Positions 2,551 through 12,628 of a stretch of DNA of 20,946 nucleotides are shown one piece after another (the stretch's first letter is position 1; each line of letters starts with the position of its first letter). The stretch spans positions 1 to 20,946 of IMG/VR virus record IMGVR_UViG_3300020009_000073; one strand, given 5' to 3'. Position numbers and translations under genes: made by a program. The notes under the pieces are model-generated. The model was given only the letters and a program-made list of their open reading frames with translations, ran no database searches and was not told where the DNA came from. The stretch is from a virus.

Positions 2551-2850
2551 ATGTGGGACATCCAGCAATTGATGGTTCACTTGTCCGGTGTGGCAGGAGC
2601 GCTTGCTTCGATGCGATTCGTGAGTGGGACGCTTTGGCAACGTGTGATCATGGTTATAGGCGGCGCATTCTTTTCTTTCTACGCTATGGATTGGACCGCG
2701 CAGTGGCTCGCGTTGCCGATAGGGCTTGCAGGCTTCTTGCTAGGCCTGTTCGGTATGTCGGTGCTCAGTCGCGTGTGGGAATGGATGCAGTCGACAACAG
2801 CTATTCGAGACTTTCTTGATGCGTGGCTTCGCAAGCCAAGGGACAAGTAA
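2551..2850 (+). CDS. Small membrane protein, candidate holin, 99 aa
   Basis: Three hydrophobic segments are visible: residues about 7-24 (LMVHLSGVAGALASMRFV), 32-48 and 53-74 (a Leu/Gly/Phe-rich stretch), followed by a charged C-terminus ending in RKPRDK. Size, three membrane passes and a basic tail, immediately upstream of the endolysin gene, fit a class I-type holin; the GLAGFLLGLFGMSVL segment recalls LydA-like holins, but I cannot confirm the family. A second frame (2541-2819) is open here but lacks membrane character and does not join the next gene. This frame ends TAA exactly before the next ATG at 2851. The ribosome site is weak (TTGAG). Confidence 0.75.
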   Translation: MWDIQQLMVHLSGVAGALASMRFVSGTLWQRVIMVIGGAFFSFYAMDWTAQWLALPIGLAGFLLGLFGMSVLSRVWEWMQSTTAIRDFLDAWLRKPRDK

Positions 2851-3159
2851 ATGGACTTCGAATTCGACATCACGCATCTCTCTGCGTTCTGCTGGTTCTT
2901 CGTTAGCATCACGGCTCTTATTGCCAGCTTCTCCGGTTACGTGCGCAAGACGATCATGGAAGTCGTCGCGCTGGCCGGTGTGAGCCTGGGCTCAATCTCG
3001 CGGGCGTATTACGTGTTCATCCGCGAAACGATTCAACCCGATGCGTTGTGGATTTCAATCGCTCTTGCGCTCTACTGTCTTGCCATGTGGCATAAGATGC
3101 TGTGGGTTGTTCCACACCGGCCGGACTACAAGCCGCCGAAGAAGTCGAAGTTCTATTGA
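2851..3159 (+). CDS. Small membrane protein of the lysis cassette, 102 aa
   Basis: Three hydrophobic stretches occur at about residues 10-31 (LSAFCWFFVSITALIASFSG), 36-56 and 66-86, the last followed by the basic tail HRPDYKPPKKSKFY. The start abuts the preceding stop (TAAATG) and its TGA overlaps the endolysin start (TGATG), so the three genes form one coupled unit. It could be a second holin, an antiholin, or a holin-like protein of unknown role. With the holin-like half of the following gene, this makes three membrane modules in one cassette, and the sequence does not say which one sets lysis timing. Confidence 0.75.
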   Translation: MDFEFDITHLSAFCWFFVSITALIASFSGYVRKTIMEVVALAGVSLGSISRAYYVFIRETIQPDALWISIALALYCLAMWHKMLWVVPHRPDYKPPKKSKFY

Positions 3160-4397
3160 TGTCGATCACGCTCACCGACTACATCGTCAAAAGGAACGTC
3201 CGCGCGTTCCTTTGGGCGCTACGCTATGGTGAGGGCACGCAGGGTGAGGACGGTTATCGGACCCTGTTTGGTGGGCGTCTGTTTCTTGGGGTAGACGGTA
3301 CCTACGGCACATTTGATGACTTCCAAGACCACCCACGCATTCGCACAACGGTCACGCTTCGGAACGGTAAAAGACTTACGTCCACTGCGGCAGGAGCCTA
3401 TCAAATTCTCGAGAAAACTTGGCTCGGCTTATGCAGCGAATATGGATTCATCAACTTTGAACCACCGACGCAAGACCTGGCTGCTATAGCTTTGATAGCA
3501 GGACGAAAGGCGCTCGAGGACGTTGTCGAAGGCCGTATCAGTACAGCGGTGTTGAAGTGCAATAAAGAGTGGGCGAGCTTGCCGGGTAGTCCCTATGGTC
3601 AGCCGGTCGTTACCCAGGAGGAATTTCTACGTGAGTATGAAGAGGCAGGTGGACTGTTGATGAATGAGGAGGCAGCTAAAGAACCAATGATGCTGCCGGT
3701 CAAAGAGCTTCCCGCTAAGCTACCTCACATCGCTACCAAGACAGCGGAGATAGCTCAAGGCAATACCGACCTTGGCGTTGAATTGCAACAGGAGAAAGCC
3801 ATGCCTATTCCAGCCATCGTTGCGGCATTGTTGCCGACACTTATTCAATTGGTCCCGCAGCTCACAAAGATATTTGGTTCCGGCTCTGAAGTGTCGCAGC
3901 GGAACATTGCCGCAGCTGAAGCGGTGTTCACTGTAGCGAAGGACGCCATCGGTGCAAAGAACGAGCAGGAGGTCATTGAAGCAATCAAGGCTGATCCTGT
4001 CCAGGCAACCGCGGTCAAGCAGGCTATTGAGAAGAACTATCTGAACATTCAAGAAGCTGGCGCCGGAGGTATTGCAGCAGCTCGTGATTACAGTATTGCC
4101 GTTGCCCAGATGCGGACGCCAGAAGGCCAGCCGTTGTCATTGCTCACACAACCAGCATTCGTCATCTCGATGGTCATGCTCGGTCTTGTTGTCATGATGG
4201 TGCTCGTGGTCCTGTTCCCTTGGGAAATATTAAGAGAGGGCGGTGGACAAATCTACACCGACGAGGTTAGACTGATTGTGGTGACGGCCATCATCGGTTC
4301 GCTTTCAACGATCGGAGCCTTCTGGCTCGGGTCATCCTTTGCGAGCCGTCGTGAACCACCTAGTGCGCTTGGCTCACGCACACGTTCAACAGATTAG
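3159..4397 (+). CDS. Endolysin (lambda R-like lytic transglycosylase, GH104) fused to a holin-like membrane protein, 412 aa
   Basis: The first 165 residues match lambda R protein by motif: RAFLWALRYGEGT near the N-terminus, where E25 corresponds to the catalytic Glu, then FGGRLF, DHPR (57-60), TSTAAGAYQIL (74-84), and WASLPGSPYGQ (138-148). Such enzymes cleave peptidoglycan between MurNAc and GlcNAc with 1,6-anhydro product. Residues 165-214 form a Glu/Lys/Ala-rich linker. From M215 the sequence looks like a separate phage holin-like family: PIPAIVAALLPTLIQLVPQL, FGSGSEVSQRN, a helical stretch to about 310, then membrane segments at about 333-354 and 371-393 and a basic tail. The start is ATG 3159, overlapping the previous stop (TGATG). 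There is no stop between the two halves. A strong ribosome site (AGGAG) precedes M215, so two products are possible. Confidence 0.85.
   Translation: MSITLTDYIVKRNVRAFLWALRYGEGTQGEDGYRTLFGGRLFLGVDGTYGTFDDFQDHPRIRTTVTLRNGKRLTSTAAGAYQILEKTWLGLCSEYGFINFEPPTQDLAAIALIAGRKALEDVVEGRISTAVLKCNKEWASLPGSPYGQPVVTQEEFLREYEEAGGLLMNEEAAKEPMMLPVKELPAKLPHIATKTAEIAQGNTDLGVELQQEKAMPIPAIVAALLPTLIQLVPQLTKIFGSGSEVSQRNIAAAEAVFTVAKDAIGAKNEQEVIEAIKADPVQATAVKQAIEKNYLNIQEAGAGGIAAARDYSIAVAQMRTPEGQPLSLLTQPAFVISMVMLGLVVMMVLVVLFPWEILREGGGQIYTDEVRLIVVTAIIGSLSTIGAFWLGSSFASRREPPSALGSRTRSTD
3801..4397 (+). CDS. Holin-like protein from an in-frame internal start, 198 aa
   Basis: ATG 3801 is in frame with the endolysin fusion and sits 7 bases after AGGAG at 3790-3794, a better ribosome site than that of the full-length gene. 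The product would begin MPIPAIVAALLPTL, which is how I recall free-standing members of this holin-like family beginning. It has a coiled or helical middle, two strong membrane segments near its C-terminus and a cytoplasmic basic tail (SRREPPSALGSRTR). It would let the phage make a free holin besides the fused form. This is inferred; no transcript or protein evidence is available. Confidence 0.5.
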   Translation: MPIPAIVAALLPTLIQLVPQLTKIFGSGSEVSQRNIAAAEAVFTVAKDAIGAKNEQEVIEAIKADPVQATAVKQAIEKNYLNIQEAGAGGIAAARDYSIAVAQMRTPEGQPLSLLTQPAFVISMVMLGLVVMMVLVVLFPWEILREGGGQIYTDEVRLIVVTAIIGSLSTIGAFWLGSSFASRREPPSALGSRTRSTD

Positions 4398-4405
4398 GAG
4401 TTAGC

Positions 4406-4618
4406 ATGAAGATCGAAGTCAGCGAAGGTTCCAGCGGCGTCTGGTCCTGGCGTTTCAAGAGCGACAACGGCGAGACGGTAATCGCAGAGGGGACGAAGAC
4501 CTTCGAGTCGAAAGCCGAAGCGCAAAAGGCGGTAGCGTCGTTCGCTACATCAGTCGGCGTGAAGGCAAACGCCGTCAGCTACGTTCCACTTTTTGCGGAG
4601 AAAGAAGAGGAAGAGTAG
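4406..4618 (+). CDS. DUF1508/YegP-like small protein, 70 aa
   Basis: The pattern WSWRFKSDNGETVIAEGTK followed by F.SKAEAQKAVASFA matches the DUF1508 (YegP) repeat, a short beta-beta-beta-alpha unit in which a strand with W.WR.K..NG..IA is followed by a helix starting S(K/R)..A..(A/G)I..V. One repeat is present; bacterial YegP has two. The molecular role of the family is not established. It starts 8 bases after the lysis gene behind TAGGAG. Its last 44 bases overlap the end of the opposite-strand nuclease gene, so this is the last gene of the rightward late operon in this window. Confidence 0.75.
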   Translation: MKIEVSEGSSGVWSWRFKSDNGETVIAEGTKTFESKAEAQKAVASFATSVGVKANAVSYVPLFAEKEEEE

Positions 4619-7894: not shown

Positions 7895-8850
7895 CTTTGA
7901 CCTCCGAATAGTCCGATCACTTCGCCAGCTTTGAAGGCGTGTGTGTCGGGTTTGATGTGCCACTGAATAGCCGTGGCGTGCTCAAAGACCAATGCCGCCA
8001 TGCGCGCATTGAGCTTCCCTGTTGCTGGTAGCTCGAGGTCGTCCGCCTCGAATGTTTCGTCTAGTAGCTTGAGTCCGCCTTCGCGGAACTCCACTACGGG
8101 TATGCGCATGTCCGCCAGTTTCACCGCGGCGTCGAGCACGCCAGCCAGCGCGTTGTGCGGTGTTGCCCAATCAGTCTCTGCTAGCCCGTTCACATAGCCA
8201 TCAACGACATGGGTCGGCCAGGAGGCCGCGATTAACTGCGTCTTCACCCAGCAGTCGTCGTCGAAGTAGAACGTGACGCTGTCATCGGTTACTCCCATGT
8301 CAATCGGTTCGCCCTTTGTCGTTACGGCATCGAAGCATGCGGAGGGCACGATCACCGTCGCAGGCAACACCGTGGGGAATGGGACGCGGCACAGAATGAC
8401 GTTGTTCGTGGCGTAGGCAAACCCGTTGTGAAGACAGATGCCGTTGGCCCATATCTTCGAAGAGTCGGTGGCCACGAAGGGTTTGAGTTGTTCAATGAGG
8501 GCACTGACACCAGAGGGTGTGTGGGAGGTTTTCGGAGTGGGGGTAGTACGTGGGTATTCCTTAGCCTCTGACAGACCGATACGGGACCGCCTGGCACGAC
8601 CCAGGACCATCAAACTAGCGTCCGTTACCCGGAACTCCGGGTCGCCGTCGCAGACCGTCCAGGCACTCGCCAGCTTCGCGGCATCAACTGTGCAGAGCGG
8701 CATGTTGGCTGGCACGTCTACTGTATAGCGCCCGTTGTTGACCTGGGCACGACGATCGCCGTTTTCATCGTCGTAGATGTGTAGCTTCTGGAAGGCTGGC
8801 AGTAGCGTGCCTGTGTGTGCGCATAGGTACTTGAGAGTTTCGAGGTTCAT
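7891..8850 (-). CDS. Sliding clamp-like protein (DnaN/beta-clamp-like), 319 aa
   Basis: The start is ATG 8850, which overlaps the dpdA stop as TAATG; the frame runs further upstream but inside dpdA. The sequence alternates beta-strand segments with helices. Its central IWANGICLHNGFAYATNNVILCRVPFP region (about 160-187) and the following VIVPSACFDAVT resemble the strand-turn-strand and helix pattern of phage DNA polymerase processivity factors of the beta-clamp fold. Bacterial clamps are about 370 residues in three domains; this is somewhat shorter. Position beside the family A polymerase supports a processivity role. The assignment rests on pattern and context; a structure prediction would decide. 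It could instead be another replication-associated protein of similar fold. Confidence 0.55.
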   Translation of the reverse strand: MNLETLKYLCAHTGTLLPAFQKLHIYDDENGDRRAQVNNGRYTVDVPANMPLCTVDAAKLASAWTVCDGDPEFRVTDASLMVLGRARRSRIGLSEAKEYPRTTPTPKTSHTPSGVSALIEQLKPFVATDSSKIWANGICLHNGFAYATNNVILCRVPFPTVLPATVIVPSACFDAVTTKGEPIDMGVTDDSVTFYFDDDCWVKTQLIAASWPTHVVDGYVNGLAETDWATPHNALAGVLDAAVKLADMRIPVVEFREGGLKLLDETFEADDLELPATGKLNARMAALVFEHATAIQWHIKPDTHAFKAGEVIGLFGGQR

Positions 8851-9788
8851 TAGAAGAAGGTCACAGCTGACCGCATGAATGTTGGGCGACCTAGTTTCTT
8901 CATGTAGTGTTTGAAGTAGCGGAGATTCCACGCGTCGCGCATGCCGTAGTTCGTAGCCAGGTCCTCCGGCTTGAAGCCCTCTGCGTGTAGGAGATCAGTG
9001 ACGTACTTCTGCGTCACGCTGTCCAGGCTCCAGAAGCTCTTGTCTTCTGTCTTGGTGTTCGGACTTTTCTCGGAGAACGAGATGGCCCGACGCTTGCCGC
9101 CGATGTCCATGATGCAGCTACCGAACATCGAGATCATGACCCACGATGTCGAGTCCACGGAGTACCACGGGTAGCGCTCCATGAGCTCGAACGTCGTCAA
9201 CCCGAATCCGTGCACACGGACTCGGGGTGACCCATCTGGGTTCGCCAGGTACTTGTCGAAGACATGATCAAGCCAGTCGATCAAGTACGGTGTTGCCTCT
9301 GGGACCATACCGCCGAGGAAGATGTAGTCATAGCCTTCGTCCAAGTACCGTACCAGCCATTCATCTCGATCGCGGGCATGGTGGACGGGGCACACTTGCA
9401 CGGGCAGTTTGAGTGACTCCATGTACTTCTGGTTAGCGTAGCTCTCCGCCTCGAGGCCGGCACCGATGGCATCAACATTCGATGCAATCTCGACAAAGTC
9501 TTGTGACGCAACTAGGTAGCGTGCGTACTTGTCGAGATCAACCTTGGCACCCAGCGTGAACATCGAGAACGCGCCCGAGTCCATGAATATCTTGTGGCCG
9601 TTGCGGCGGATCACTTCATCGACTTGCCCTTTGCCGACATAGTGATAGCTCTCGAGGTGGAACGGGTAGGACTCGGAGGCAGCAGCAATCTGCATCGGAT
9701 TGCCGCTTGTAGAGTCTGCCCGATGACCGTTGTAACGAGCAGCAGCATAAATCTTAATGCAGTCATTGAAGTCCTCGGCGTGGTTCAT
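8850..9788 (-). CDS. dpdA: DpdA: DNA guanine transglycosylase inserting 7-deazaguanine, 312 aa
   Basis: DpdA is the phage relative of tRNA-guanine transglycosylase (TGT) that exchanges guanine in DNA for a 7-deazaguanine base. The motif IFMDSGAFSMF (67-77) parallels TGT LTDSGGFQVF, so D70 matches the substrate-recognition Asp; YSVDSTSW (209-216) parallels the region holding the nucleophilic Asp, so D212 is the likely nucleophile. VHGFGLTTFELM before it matches the TGT GxGTPEDL loop. The CxCxxC zinc site of tRNA-acting TGT is absent, as expected for DpdA. The gene lies in a coupled operon with all four preQ0 synthesis genes, and its ATG overlaps the stop of a 27-aa membrane peptide. The stop overlaps the clamp start (TAATG). 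Confident on family; the exact base installed is not visible. Confidence 0.93.
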   Translation of the reverse strand: MNHAEDFNDCIKIYAAARYNGHRADSTSGNPMQIAAASESYPFHLESYHYVGKGQVDEVIRRNGHKIFMDSGAFSMFTLGAKVDLDKYARYLVASQDFVEIASNVDAIGAGLEAESYANQKYMESLKLPVQVCPVHHARDRDEWLVRYLDEGYDYIFLGGMVPEATPYLIDWLDHVFDKYLANPDGSPRVRVHGFGLTTFELMERYPWYSVDSTSWVMISMFGSCIMDIGGKRRAISFSEKSPNTKTEDKSFWSLDSVTQKYVTDLLHAEGFKPEDLATNYGMRDAWNLRYFKHYMKKLGRPTFMRSAVTFF

Positions 9789-9868
9789 AAACCTTCACCA
9801 TATAGCAATAGCCAGAGAAGTAGTATGATGATTGCCACTGCTTTCTCTAGTGCCCATTTATCCTCCAT
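9785..9868 (-). CDS. 27-aa single-pass membrane peptide between folE and dpdA
   Basis: The frame starts MEDKWALEKAVAIIILLL and continues WLLLYGEGL: a charged amphipathic N-terminus, about 13 consecutive hydrophobic residues flanked by Trp and Tyr, and a short acidic tail. Its ATG overlaps the end of folE by 11 bases and its TGA overlaps the dpdA start as ATGA, the same coupling used by every gene of this operon. The weak point is the ribosome site: the GGAGG just downstream of this start would serve ATG 9857 in another frame (a 20-codon polar reading) better. I favour the membrane frame because of its composition and exact ATGA junction. Function unknown. Confidence 0.5.
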   Translation of the reverse strand: MEDKWALEKAVAIIILLLWLLLYGEGL

Positions 9869-10466
9869 TGCAGGCGGCGAGGAACTCGGCCCGTGCTTTT
9901 GCGTCATCTTTGATTGCCCCCTTCAAGGCGTTTGTGATTGTGTAGTGCCCCTGCTGGCACACGCCGCGGCTTTCCATGCACAGGTGCCGTGCGCGTACTT
10001 GTACGCCGACGCCGATTGGCTTGAGGTTCCGATTGATGGCATCGGCAATCTGCGCTGTGAGTCGCTCCTGCACTTGCAATCGCCTGGCGTATGCGTCCAC
10101 GACACGGTTGATCTTCGACAGCCCCACGATGCGGCCGTTCGGGATGTAGGCCACCGTAGCGGTGCCGAAGATAGCGGCGAGGTGATGCTCGCAGTGTGAG
10201 TAGAGCGGGATGTTCTTCACGACGATCATCTCGTCAACACCGTCGGCTCCGTCCAGGAACGTTTTGAGCAGAGCATCGACATTGACGCGATAGCCAGCGG
10301 CCCAATAGTCGCGCCAGGCTTCGGCCACACGCGTCGGCGTTTCTTGGATGCCTTCACGCAATGGCACGTCGTAGCTTTCAATGCTTTCGATGATGCGAAG
10401 TTGATCCTCAACTGCTTCTACCATTTGCAATGGACCGAGTGGGATAGGCTCCTCGAGTGGGCTCAT
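9858..10466 (-). CDS. folE: GTP cyclohydrolase I (FolE), 202 aa
   Basis: FolE converts GTP to 7,8-dihydroneopterin triphosphate, the first step shared by folate and 7-deazaguanine synthesis. Family marks are GIQETPTRVAEAW (39-51), the zinc site YSHCEHHLAAIFG with C92 and H95, VGLSKINRVVDAYARRLQVQERLT (114-137) and the second zinc cysteine in HLCMESRGV (C163; bacterial enzymes usually read CMxxRGV). All three zinc ligands are present and length is normal, so the enzyme should be active. The ATG overlaps the queE stop as ATGA, with GGAGGT upstream. Placed among queC, queD, queE and dpdA, it feeds the phage DNA-modification pathway by raising flux from GTP. Confidence 0.95.
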   Translation of the reverse strand: MSPLEEPIPLGPLQMVEAVEDQLRIIESIESYDVPLREGIQETPTRVAEAWRDYWAAGYRVNVDALLKTFLDGADGVDEMIVVKNIPLYSHCEHHLAAIFGTATVAYIPNGRIVGLSKINRVVDAYARRLQVQERLTAQIADAINRNLKPIGVGVQVRARHLCMESRGVCQQGHYTITNALKGAIKDDAKARAEFLAACNGG

Positions 10467-11296
10467 TCAACACCTCCGAACAAATGTGTCTGACACGTCA
10501 TGCGCCGGTTGTAGTCCATCGCCAGCCGTGCAGCGTGTCGATAGTTCTTGGCTGTTTCCTTCTGGTCGATCAGTGTGTCGTCCCAGATGGTGGCTACTTC
10601 ACCTGGCAAGGTGCTACGCTTGTAGACAGCCATGCCACTGATGTAGATGTCGTTCTCAGCGACGAGTGCGTCCTCTGGTACGTCGTAATACGGTGATGCC
10701 GTGTCAGCTGTCACAACGTACTTGAGGTCTAGCACGTCCGCACTATTGAGCCAGAGGTGCGGCATAGCTGAATACGTGCTGCGAGTGTGCGGTACTTTGG
10801 GTGAGCACACGAAGCGCATGTGGCCGTGCTTGCGTGCGGTGTCGATCATCTCTTCACGCAGCAGCAACCCGTTCGTCTCAAACTGCCAGGTCGGCCGGCT
10901 GAGCATTCCGAAGTGCGGGTCGACCTGGGCGATGATGTGCTTGATCTGTTGCCATTGTAAAAGAGGCTCACCGCCAGTGAAGACGATGAGGTCGCACTTG
11001 TGCGCTTGCAGCTCGTGCATGATGGCATCGTGTGCTTGTGTCACCCGGCCATCCGCCAGGTGGAACTTCGTGTCGCACCACGGGCAGTCTTGCTTCAGCC
11101 CAATGTTGCAGCCCGCCAGCCGTATGAATAGAGCGGGTTGGCCGGCGTATGGGCCTTCCCCTTGTATGGTGTGAAACATACTGTGAATCAGGAGCTGGTC
11201 GGGCTGTAGCATCTCGTACGAGTTCTTCGTGGCGTTAACGTCTGCGTTGATGATTGGGAATTTTCGCTTGACAGGAGGGTCTAGAAGGCTGTGCAT
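10463..11296 (-). CDS. queE: 7-carboxy-7-deazaguanine synthase (QueE), radical SAM, 277 aa
   Basis: QueE rearranges 6-carboxy-tetrahydropterin to 7-carboxy-7-deazaguanine (CDG) using a 4Fe-4S cluster and S-adenosylmethionine. FHTIQGEGPYAG (41-52) is the family signature. The cluster cysteines are C63, C71 and C74 (CX7CX2C), a loop spacing unlike the canonical radical-SAM CX3CX2C, and QueE is known for variable loops. FTGGEPLLQ (106-114) is the SAM-binding GGE motif. A late Cys-Gln-Thr-His segment matches the family C-terminus. The ATG follows the queD stop by two bases with AGGAA upstream. At 277 residues it is longer than many bacterial QueE, mainly by an N-terminal extension of about 30 residues. 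Confidence 0.95.
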   Translation of the reverse strand: MHSLLDPPVKRKFPIINADVNATKNSYEMLQPDQLLIHSMFHTIQGEGPYAGQPALFIRLAGCNIGLKQDCPWCDTKFHLADGRVTQAHDAIMHELQAHKCDLIVFTGGEPLLQWQQIKHIIAQVDPHFGMLSRPTWQFETNGLLLREEMIDTARKHGHMRFVCSPKVPHTRSTYSAMPHLWLNSADVLDLKYVVTADTASPYYDVPEDALVAENDIYISGMAVYKRSTLPGEVATIWDDTLIDQKETAKNYRHAARLAMDYNRRMTCQTHLFGGVE

Positions 11297-11298
11297 CG

Positions 11299-11756
11299 TC
11301 AGTTCCTAGGGTTGATATAGATCCCCGAATTCTTGTCGTTCTCGCGTACCTCGACGCTGATGACCCAGCATCGGCCTAACGACTTCGAAATTAGATGTCC
11401 GTTCACCCATTCGCAAACCCATTGCGCTGTGCTTTCCATGCCGACACCGTAGGGCAACAGGCGAATCTTCGCGCCGCCTGCTTGCTCGATAGCGCGGAAC
11501 GCTGGCAGCAGCGGGTCGTCCTCACACAGTAGGAGCGTGTGGTCGAAGTATTCATCGAGGAACGACTTCACCCAGCCTAGCTGCCCGAAGTCCACCACGA
11601 AGCCGCAAGCGTCGCGATCGCTGGACCCGAAGACAAAGTGGAAGCTGCGCGAGTACCCGTGCACGAAGGCGCAGACGCCCTTGTGCCGGTGTTCCGATGC
11701 GCGCAAGGGTAGTTCCAGTAGATTTTTGTGCTCTGATGTGGTGTGACGTCGTTCAT
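11299..11756 (-). CDS. queD: 6-carboxy-tetrahydropterin synthase (QueD), with an apparent one-base frameshift
   Basis: QueD turns dihydroneopterin triphosphate into 6-carboxy-tetrahydropterin. The main frame reads GVCAFVHGYSRSFHFVFG, FVVDFGQLGWVKSFLDEYFDH, a CEDDPLLPAF segment and MESTAQWVCEWVN, the marks of the phage-type QueD subfamily with HGY instead of HGH. The correct-looking start is ATG 11756: it overlaps the queC stop as ATGA, has GGAG 6 bases upstream, and reads MNDVTPHQSTKIYWNYPCAHR, an expected QueD N-terminus. That stretch is one base out of frame with the remainder; the two join if one base is missing near 11692-11693. The uninterrupted frame begins upstream inside queC (ATG 11769) and lacks the NYPCAHR segment. 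It could be a real mutation, an assembly error or recoding. Confidence 0.8.
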
Positions 11757-12628
11757 GCTTTCTCCGCATCTTTGTCGGTTGCTGTGCCAGGTGGAGGCGT
11801 GTGATGGAAGTGTTCGGGGTCTTCCATAAACACGGCAATCTCACCTACCGTGATGCCCTGCTTTAGGGCGTTCGGCCAGCGGGCTTTAATCATTGCCCAG
11901 CGCTCGATCAGTGGGTCAGGTACCCCAGCCTGCCTGAAGCCTTCCGCGCGCAGCACACACGCATGGCACCGCCCGCATGGGGGTGTTTCGCCGGCATAGC
12001 AGGTATGGCTCATCGACATGACCTTATCCCAGCCTGGGAAGCTGGCGGCGAGCTTGACCGTCTCGGCCTTTGTAAGGTCGATGAGTGGGGTAAGAACACG
12101 CAGCTGCGGCCGGTCGGCCCGGATGTAATCGTCGCGATTCATCCCGAGTGCCTCTTGCATGGCAAAGGTTGTCGCGGCGATGAAATTCTCGGTGCAGTCG
12201 GGATAGTTGGCATTGTCCATTTGACACACGCCGGTGATGAGGTCGTAGCAGTCGAGCGATAGCGCGTAGTTGCCAGCCAGTATGAGGAACAGCATGTTGC
12301 GCAATGGCACGAACGTGACCTCGACACGGTTCTGAATCACCTGCTCCATCTGGTCGAAGTTGTTGTACGTTTCGAGCTCGACGTGTGGGTTGATCAGTGG
12401 GCTACGACCGCGGAGGGTGCCAGCCACGTTGATGATGCGGTGTGAGGCAACACCGACCATGCCGGCAATGCACGAGGCCGCGTCGATCTCGATACGGTGC
12501 TTCTGCCCGTAGTCGAACGTCAGGGCGTGTACCTCTTTGTACCGTTGCTTAGCCCATAGCAGGCACGTCGTTGAATCCTGCCCGCCCGACAATATGACGA
12601 GCGCTTTCTCTCGCTGTAGTGTATTCAC
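11753..12628 (-). CDS. queC: 7-cyano-7-deazaguanine synthase (QueC), 291 aa
   Basis: QueC converts CDG to preQ0 with two ATP and ammonia. ALVILSGGQDSTTCLLWA at the N-terminus is the PP-loop ATP pyrophosphatase motif (SGGQDS, 14-19). C210, C218, C221 and C224 in HTCYAGETPPCGRCHAC form the zinc site. FVPLRNMLFLILAGNYA and ITGVCQMDNANYPDC are family blocks. The start is GTG 12628 with AGGAG five bases away. About 50 residues after residue 240 extend beyond the usual end of QueC; they are not a glutamine amidotransferase domain, so this is not a Gat-QueC fusion of the kind linked to archaeosine-type bases. The stop overlaps the queD start. First gene of the leftward operon, behind a 54-base gap with a small hairpin. 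Confidence 0.95.
   Translation of the reverse strand: MNTLQREKALVILSGGQDSTTCLLWAKQRYKEVHALTFDYGQKHRIEIDAASCIAGMVGVASHRIINVAGTLRGRSPLINPHVELETYNNFDQMEQVIQNRVEVTFVPLRNMLFLILAGNYALSLDCYDLITGVCQMDNANYPDCTENFIAATTFAMQEALGMNRDDYIRADRPQLRVLTPLIDLTKAETVKLAASFPGWDKVMSMSHTCYAGETPPCGRCHACVLRAEGFRQAGVPDPLIERWAMIKARWPNALKQGITVGEIAVFMEDPEHFHHTPPPGTATDKDAEKA

Follow-up and report, generated by a model that had tools for sequence, protein, structure and literature searches.

Can a single phage gene encode both an endolysin and a holin, and yield the holin on its own as well? Phages as a rule make the two as distinct proteins, with the timing of lysis ascribed to a holin that frees a soluble or SAR endolysin. 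We analyzed a stretch of DNA of 20,946 nucleotides from a soil-type phage (IMG/VR record IMGVR_UViG_3300020009_000073, positions 1 to 20,946; hereafter, the window) in which one reading frame runs from a lambda R-like enzyme into a holin-like protein, with a candidate internal start at M215. The features of this gene and of the two genes ahead of it are collected in Table 1.

Table 1. Coordinates of the fusion gene, its parts and the two preceding genes in the window
Feature	Coordinates	Strand	Remarks
Small holin, separate gene, phrog_2359	2551..2850	+	E 1.9e-10; 3 weak hydrophobic segments
Small membrane protein, no assigned family, 3 hydrophobic segments	2851..3159	+	stop TGA 3157-3159 overlaps the fusion ATG
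Fusion ORF: GH104 endolysin, linker and TeaA-type holin domain	3159..4397	+	412 aa
GH104 (lambda R-like) catalytic domain (predicted), residues 14-168	3198..3662	+	profile match; E25 = lambda E19
Linker, unconserved, residues 169-214	3663..3800	+	AF2 pLDDT about 23-39 (very low)
Internal Shine-Dalgarno (SD) match AGGAG	3790..3794	+	6 nt before ATG215
Nested ORF from ATG215, in frame, 198-aa TeaA/phrog_1544-type holin (predicted)	3801..4397	+	start aligned with TeaA M1
Hydrophobic/amphipathic segment, residues 217-238	3807..3872	+	KD 1.8, proline-containing; possible third pass or surface helix
Transmembrane segment, residues 335-353	4161..4217	+	KD 3.1
Transmembrane segment, residues 372-390, then basic tail	4272..4328	+	KD 2.1

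From ATG 3159 to the stop codon at 4395-4397 the frame is open over all 412 codons, and residues 165-214, where a stop or a frameshift would separate the two halves, contain neither. A first scan returned 19 loci, some of them near-identical to each other and one ended by a contig edge; all 18 complete close relatives carry the fusion in one unbroken frame with an ATG at the joint, which excludes a sequencing frameshift or a lost stop codon. An artefact of assembly or sequencing is likewise ruled out, as the same frame and joint occur in many independent contigs, and the one-frame fusion described in the initial annotation stands. The first ATG, which overlaps the stop codon of the upstream gene, lacks an SD of its own in the window and its clade alike, so this start is probably translationally coupled to that gene. 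Neither half of the protein has a useful match in Pfam or NCBIfam.

The N-terminal half is predicted to be a GH104, lambda R-like endolysin, as initially annotated. The fusion profile matches lambda lysozyme in two structures, 1am7 (E 6e-32, positions 14-168, hmmsearch) and 3d3d (E 1e-31), the N-terminal half matches the PHROGs endolysin family phrog_90 (E 1e-39), and E25, which faces the catalytic Glu of lambda, E19, does not vary among 17 aligned GH104 fusions. Lambda R (PDB 1am7) thus has the catalytic domain and the catalytic Glu in common with the fusion, but it ends after the domain, is soluble and has its holin in a separate gene, whereas the window's enzyme continues into a holin domain. 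Nor does the protein look like a SAR endolysin, no hydrophobic segment preceding residue 214 at a KD threshold of 1.5.

For the C-terminal half (residues 215-412), the relevant comparison is with TeaA of Vibrio phage ICP1, a holin shown experimentally to collapse the proton motive force and lyse cells (PMC7182436). This half matches phrog_1544 (E 3e-5), of which TeaA is a core member (5e-54), and gives weak tblastn matches (E 0.02-0.1) to TeaA and other Vibrio phage proteins. Aligned by hhalign with TeaA and a second Vibrio homologue, it reaches a probability of 97.9% (E 6e-13, 160 columns), and it and TeaA run colinear from their first residues, so that M215 stands where TeaA begins. The initial annotation had called this half holin-like and M215 the usual start of the holin, and the full-length homology agrees with it on both counts. 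The two proteins share their full colinear length, the start position, a hydrophobic segment near the N-terminus and two membrane segments near the C-terminus; they differ in that TeaA is encoded by a separate gene whereas the window's version follows an endolysin in frame. We do not file the C-terminal half under PF11351 (GTA_holin_3TM), since it has no match to that model at E<=1 and TeaA itself has none at E<=0.5.

Wider scans added seven more divergent fusions, in which three unrelated enzyme types stand ahead of the same C-terminal half: GH104 (L035, L044, L055, L061), a GH19-type endolysin (phrog_181; L063, L071) and an Enc34-type endolysin domain (phrog_873; L036, 38% identity to Enc34, E 2e-18). 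The Enc34/PHA02564-type catalytic domain is absent from the window's GH104 enzyme and is found in L036 alone. The C-terminal halves of the window, L035, L036, L044, L063 and L071 match phrog_1544; searched singly, those of L055 and L061, the latter the most divergent, fall short of it at E 0.01. In 13 records that were searched, the C-terminal half occurs exactly once per record, so no separate gene of the TeaA-type family supplies the holin in those records. Relative to 11 unfused GH104s, the GH104 domains sampled from fusions group as a single clade (support 100/99), and the joint has therefore been kept over long divergence. A tree of the C-terminal halves places the GH19 fusion L063, at moderate support, among fusions of the GH104 type, and so points to an exchange of the enzyme ahead of this half. 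Given a fusion to three endolysin types, an adjoining holin gene and homology to a proven holin, it is extremely improbable that the protein is a lysozyme of the virion that spans a membrane with its tail and acts at entry, even if virion proteins with GH104 domains are known as well (internal protein D of Bordetella phage BB8; phrog_17230 tail/lysozyme).

We also searched for relatives that keep the two halves as separate genes, as the initial annotation had proposed, and no split version of precisely this pair was found. A lysozyme/holin pair of Synechococcus phages was considered as such a form and rejected, its holin belonging to another family, phrog_126. None of 50,697 phage records covers 80% of the fusion, and no isolate phage in that collection carries it; plasmids gave no match for the C-terminal half of L071, and two scans of GTDB genomes gave no relative. 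L071 is record IMGVR_UViG_649633004_000006; its number looks different from the metagenome-type identifiers of the other contigs, which may point to a provirus, perhaps inducible, in a cultured strain.

Is M215 a start codon in its own right? The AGGAG reported ahead of it is present at 3790-3794, with six bases between its last G (at -7) and the A of ATG 3801-3803. Taken by itself, the window's SD is of unremarkable strength: 3.5% of internal ATGs equal it, as do 586 of 2000 synonymous shuffles (29%) of the six codons before M215, and we rejected a judgement from the window alone as weak on these grounds. What does exceed chance, at the level of sequence, is the recurrence of the signal at the same domain joint in eight lineages, together with how little the SD codons vary synonymously. 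All eight lineages have a start codon at the joint (seven ATG, one GTG) and an SD match upstream of it: AGGAG-6-ATG in the window, GGAG-9-ATG in L035, AAGGA-7-ATG in L036, AAAGG-7-ATG (weak) in L044, AAAGGAG-6-ATG in L055, AGGAGG-5-GTG in L061, AGAGGAG-6-ATG in L063 and AAGGA-7-ATG in L071. SD energies range from -3.2 (L044) to -10.3 kcal/mol (L061), with -7.4 kcal/mol in the window, and the fractions relative to 427 internal ATGs taken from these contigs are, in the order just given, 0.035, 0.04, 0.09, 0.28, 0.01, 0.002, 0.016 and 0.09. Fisher's combined p across the eight lineages is about 4e-6 if they are independent, a figure that shared descent makes optimistic.

Within the window's clade (70-92% nucleotide identity), Q211 and E212 show no synonymous differences in 132 comparable, albeit non-independent, pairs, compared with 33% at two-fold codons in general; where the amino acid does change there, in two cases (CGGGAG, CAGGGA), an SD match persists. 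The five-codon stretch at 208 ranks ninth lowest of 404 in synonymous variation; seven of the eight lower stretches lie at the 3' end of the fusion gene, beside the SD of the following gene, and act as a built-in positive control. The linker has diverged within the clade (LGVELQQEKA versus IAASYIQEKQ), and AGGAG is retained in nearly all members. At the RNA level, the internal-start site lies within the least-folded 1-4% of the gene's windows in L035, L036, L055 and L071, and the structure around the window's own site is ordinary. The comparison suggests selection on the internal start that had been proposed at M215, and the idea that one gene would yield a fused protein and a free holin is well supported by it.

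Two other accounts of the internal start were weighed. If two adjacent genes had fused, an old SD and ATG would remain, and with 3.5% of internal ATGs as strong, the site could be an unused relic of that event; but a clade of GH104 fusions has kept it despite long branches and linker saturation, L061 has a GTG with a strong SD as replacement, and the SD codons vary little, and we consider a relic very unlikely. The other account starts from lambda S105/S107, where a dual start gives two starts for one holin. The fusion resembles that system in its two starts, with an entire enzyme as the extension, and a long form acting as antiholin of the short holin in the same manner, the enzyme being a passenger, would fit two in-frame products that share a membrane domain, the longer bearing a large cytoplasmic extension. 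We regard such a timer as quite unlikely: the catalytic Glu is kept in all GH104 fusions and three enzyme types occur, which argues that enzymatic activity, and not bulk only, is selected.

The hydropathy of the C-terminal half shows two clear C-terminal segments with a short loop between them, plus one weaker segment, and AF2 models (mean pLDDT 51 and 58) place helices at 217-238, 335-353 and 372-390 with low confidence. Two passes and no signal peptide would plausibly hold the enzyme in the cytoplasm, as was first reasoned from the number of passes; the third hydrophobic segment, at 217-238, may however be a further pass, and a third pass would change the enzyme's side. This segment, beside the linker, could reorient, as might be expected if the holin part carried the fused enzyme across the membrane with no large hole. 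Translocation of this kind is proposed for a natural holin-endolysin fusion, the C. sporogenes TpeE-endolysin (PMC9527704), but the order is reversed here, with the enzyme N-terminal, and the holin families differ, and we consider it highly improbable for the window.

The neighboring genes bear on what the holin domain is for. A holin of family phrog_2359 is encoded at 2551-2850 and also on six long contigs of the window's clade, and the C-terminal half therefore cannot simply be named the holin of the phage; in this clade its role could be that of a second holin, of a tether or of an antiholin. The presence of phrog_2359 would also suit an anchored endolysin of the Enc34/M4Lys/LysAP kind, in which the C-terminal half only tethers and permeabilises, the phrog_2359 protein is the real holin and the internal product is minor, and full-length endolysins with C-terminal transmembrane domains do lyse cells with no holin (PMC7143992, PMC8943055). 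We think this unlikely, although it deserves more weight than the other alternatives: the C-terminal half is a whole TeaA homologue of about 200 residues and no short hairpin, the membrane part of Enc34 is unrelated to it (hhalign probability 0.1%, on which grounds a hidden TeaA relative in Enc34 was rejected) with no internal SD and ATG at the Enc34 joint, and phrog_2359 was not found in the records of L035, L036, L061 and L071.

Several further observations concern the surroundings of the gene. A small DUF1508 protein is encoded directly after the fusion (window 4406-4618; E 1e-5), and its start signal overlaps or abuts the fusion's 3' end, where synonymous variation is lowest. No spanin (Rz/Rz1-like) was recognised by eye beside the lysis cassette at 2551-4618. 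Beside divergent fusions (L071:2935-3297, L041:3636-4004, L035:1577-1867) lie small proteins with one membrane pass and no clear family, which are possible antiholins or partners; arrA likewise adjoins teaA in ICP1. Elsewhere in the window, genes for GTP cyclohydrolase I (FolE), a radical-SAM protein (QueE-like), PTPS (QueD-like) and QueC stand in a row on the minus strand (9858-12628) and make up a preQ0/7-deazaguanine pathway, which suggests modified guanine in the phage DNA. A 312-aa protein encoded beside them (8850-9788, minus strand), with no Pfam match, looks by eye like a putative 7-deazaguanine-inserting transglycosylase (DpdA-like).

Beyond the fused frame, the two homologies and the conserved internal start signal, which are properties of the sequences themselves, we infer that the internal start is used, that the products insert into the membrane and co-assemble, and that the enzyme is delivered at the lesion. 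In the model that we prefer, whose chances we judge to be evenly balanced, one gene would give a tethered endolysin-holin and a free holin that co-assemble in the membrane, tying enzyme delivery to triggering. The long product, initiated at 3159, would be an endolysin with a TeaA-type holin subunit as its C-terminus, anchored in the inner membrane so that the enzyme faces the cytoplasm and is kept from its substrate. The short product, initiated at ATG215 from its own SD, would be the holin alone, and the two forms would co-assemble through the holin domain that they share. On triggering, tethered enzymes at the lesion would reach the peptidoglycan through the flexible linker, and enzyme delivery would thereby be coupled to holin triggering. 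More generally, and leaning slightly towards doubt, we tentatively propose a recurrent architecture, an "SD-start-holin" module behind three unrelated endolysin types, in which free and enzyme-bearing holin would build one assembly and the hole would deliver its own enzyme. Against the preferred model we count the upstream phrog_2359 holin, which could be the hole-former, the weak signal of L044 (p 0.28), the ordinary RNA at the window's site, the low confidence of AF2 on topology, and the failure of L055 and L061 to reach phrog_1544.

How does this gene compare with known systems? Membrane anchoring alone is not new, since endolysins with C-terminal membrane segments are known in Enc34 ORF39, M4Lys and LysAP (PMC8943055, PMC7143992, PMC8879335). 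Those proteins, like the fusion, have an enzyme followed by membrane segments and no signal peptide, but they end in a short membrane tail of one or two helices whereas the fusion ends in a whole TeaA homologue. Two polypeptides from one endolysin gene are likewise known, from CTP1L, LysIME-EF1 and Ms6 LysA (PMC9430671), where an in-frame internal start gives a C-terminal product; the fusion has a candidate internal start with its own ribosome-binding site. The short product in those systems, whose hosts are Gram-positive or mycobacterial, carries a wall-binding domain (with a second catalytic domain in two cases), whereas in the fusion it is predicted to be a TeaA-like membrane protein, a holin. 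A published survey of internal starts in endolysins omitted Gram-negative phages as unlikely (PMC9430671). The TpeE-endolysin likewise combines holin and endolysin in one polypeptide but has its holin, of another family, at the N-terminus (PMC9527704), whereas the window's holin is C-terminal. A search of the open-access literature turned up no description of an endolysin gene with a holin nested in frame inside it. The authors of the Enc34 study noted that no known mechanism fits a Gram-negative C-terminal-membrane endolysin reaching the wall (PMC8943055). In the fusion described here, the C-terminal part can be recognised as a holin and carries a conserved signal for making that holin alone, which makes holin-bound delivery directly testable; if it is true, both steps of lysis would sit in one gene.
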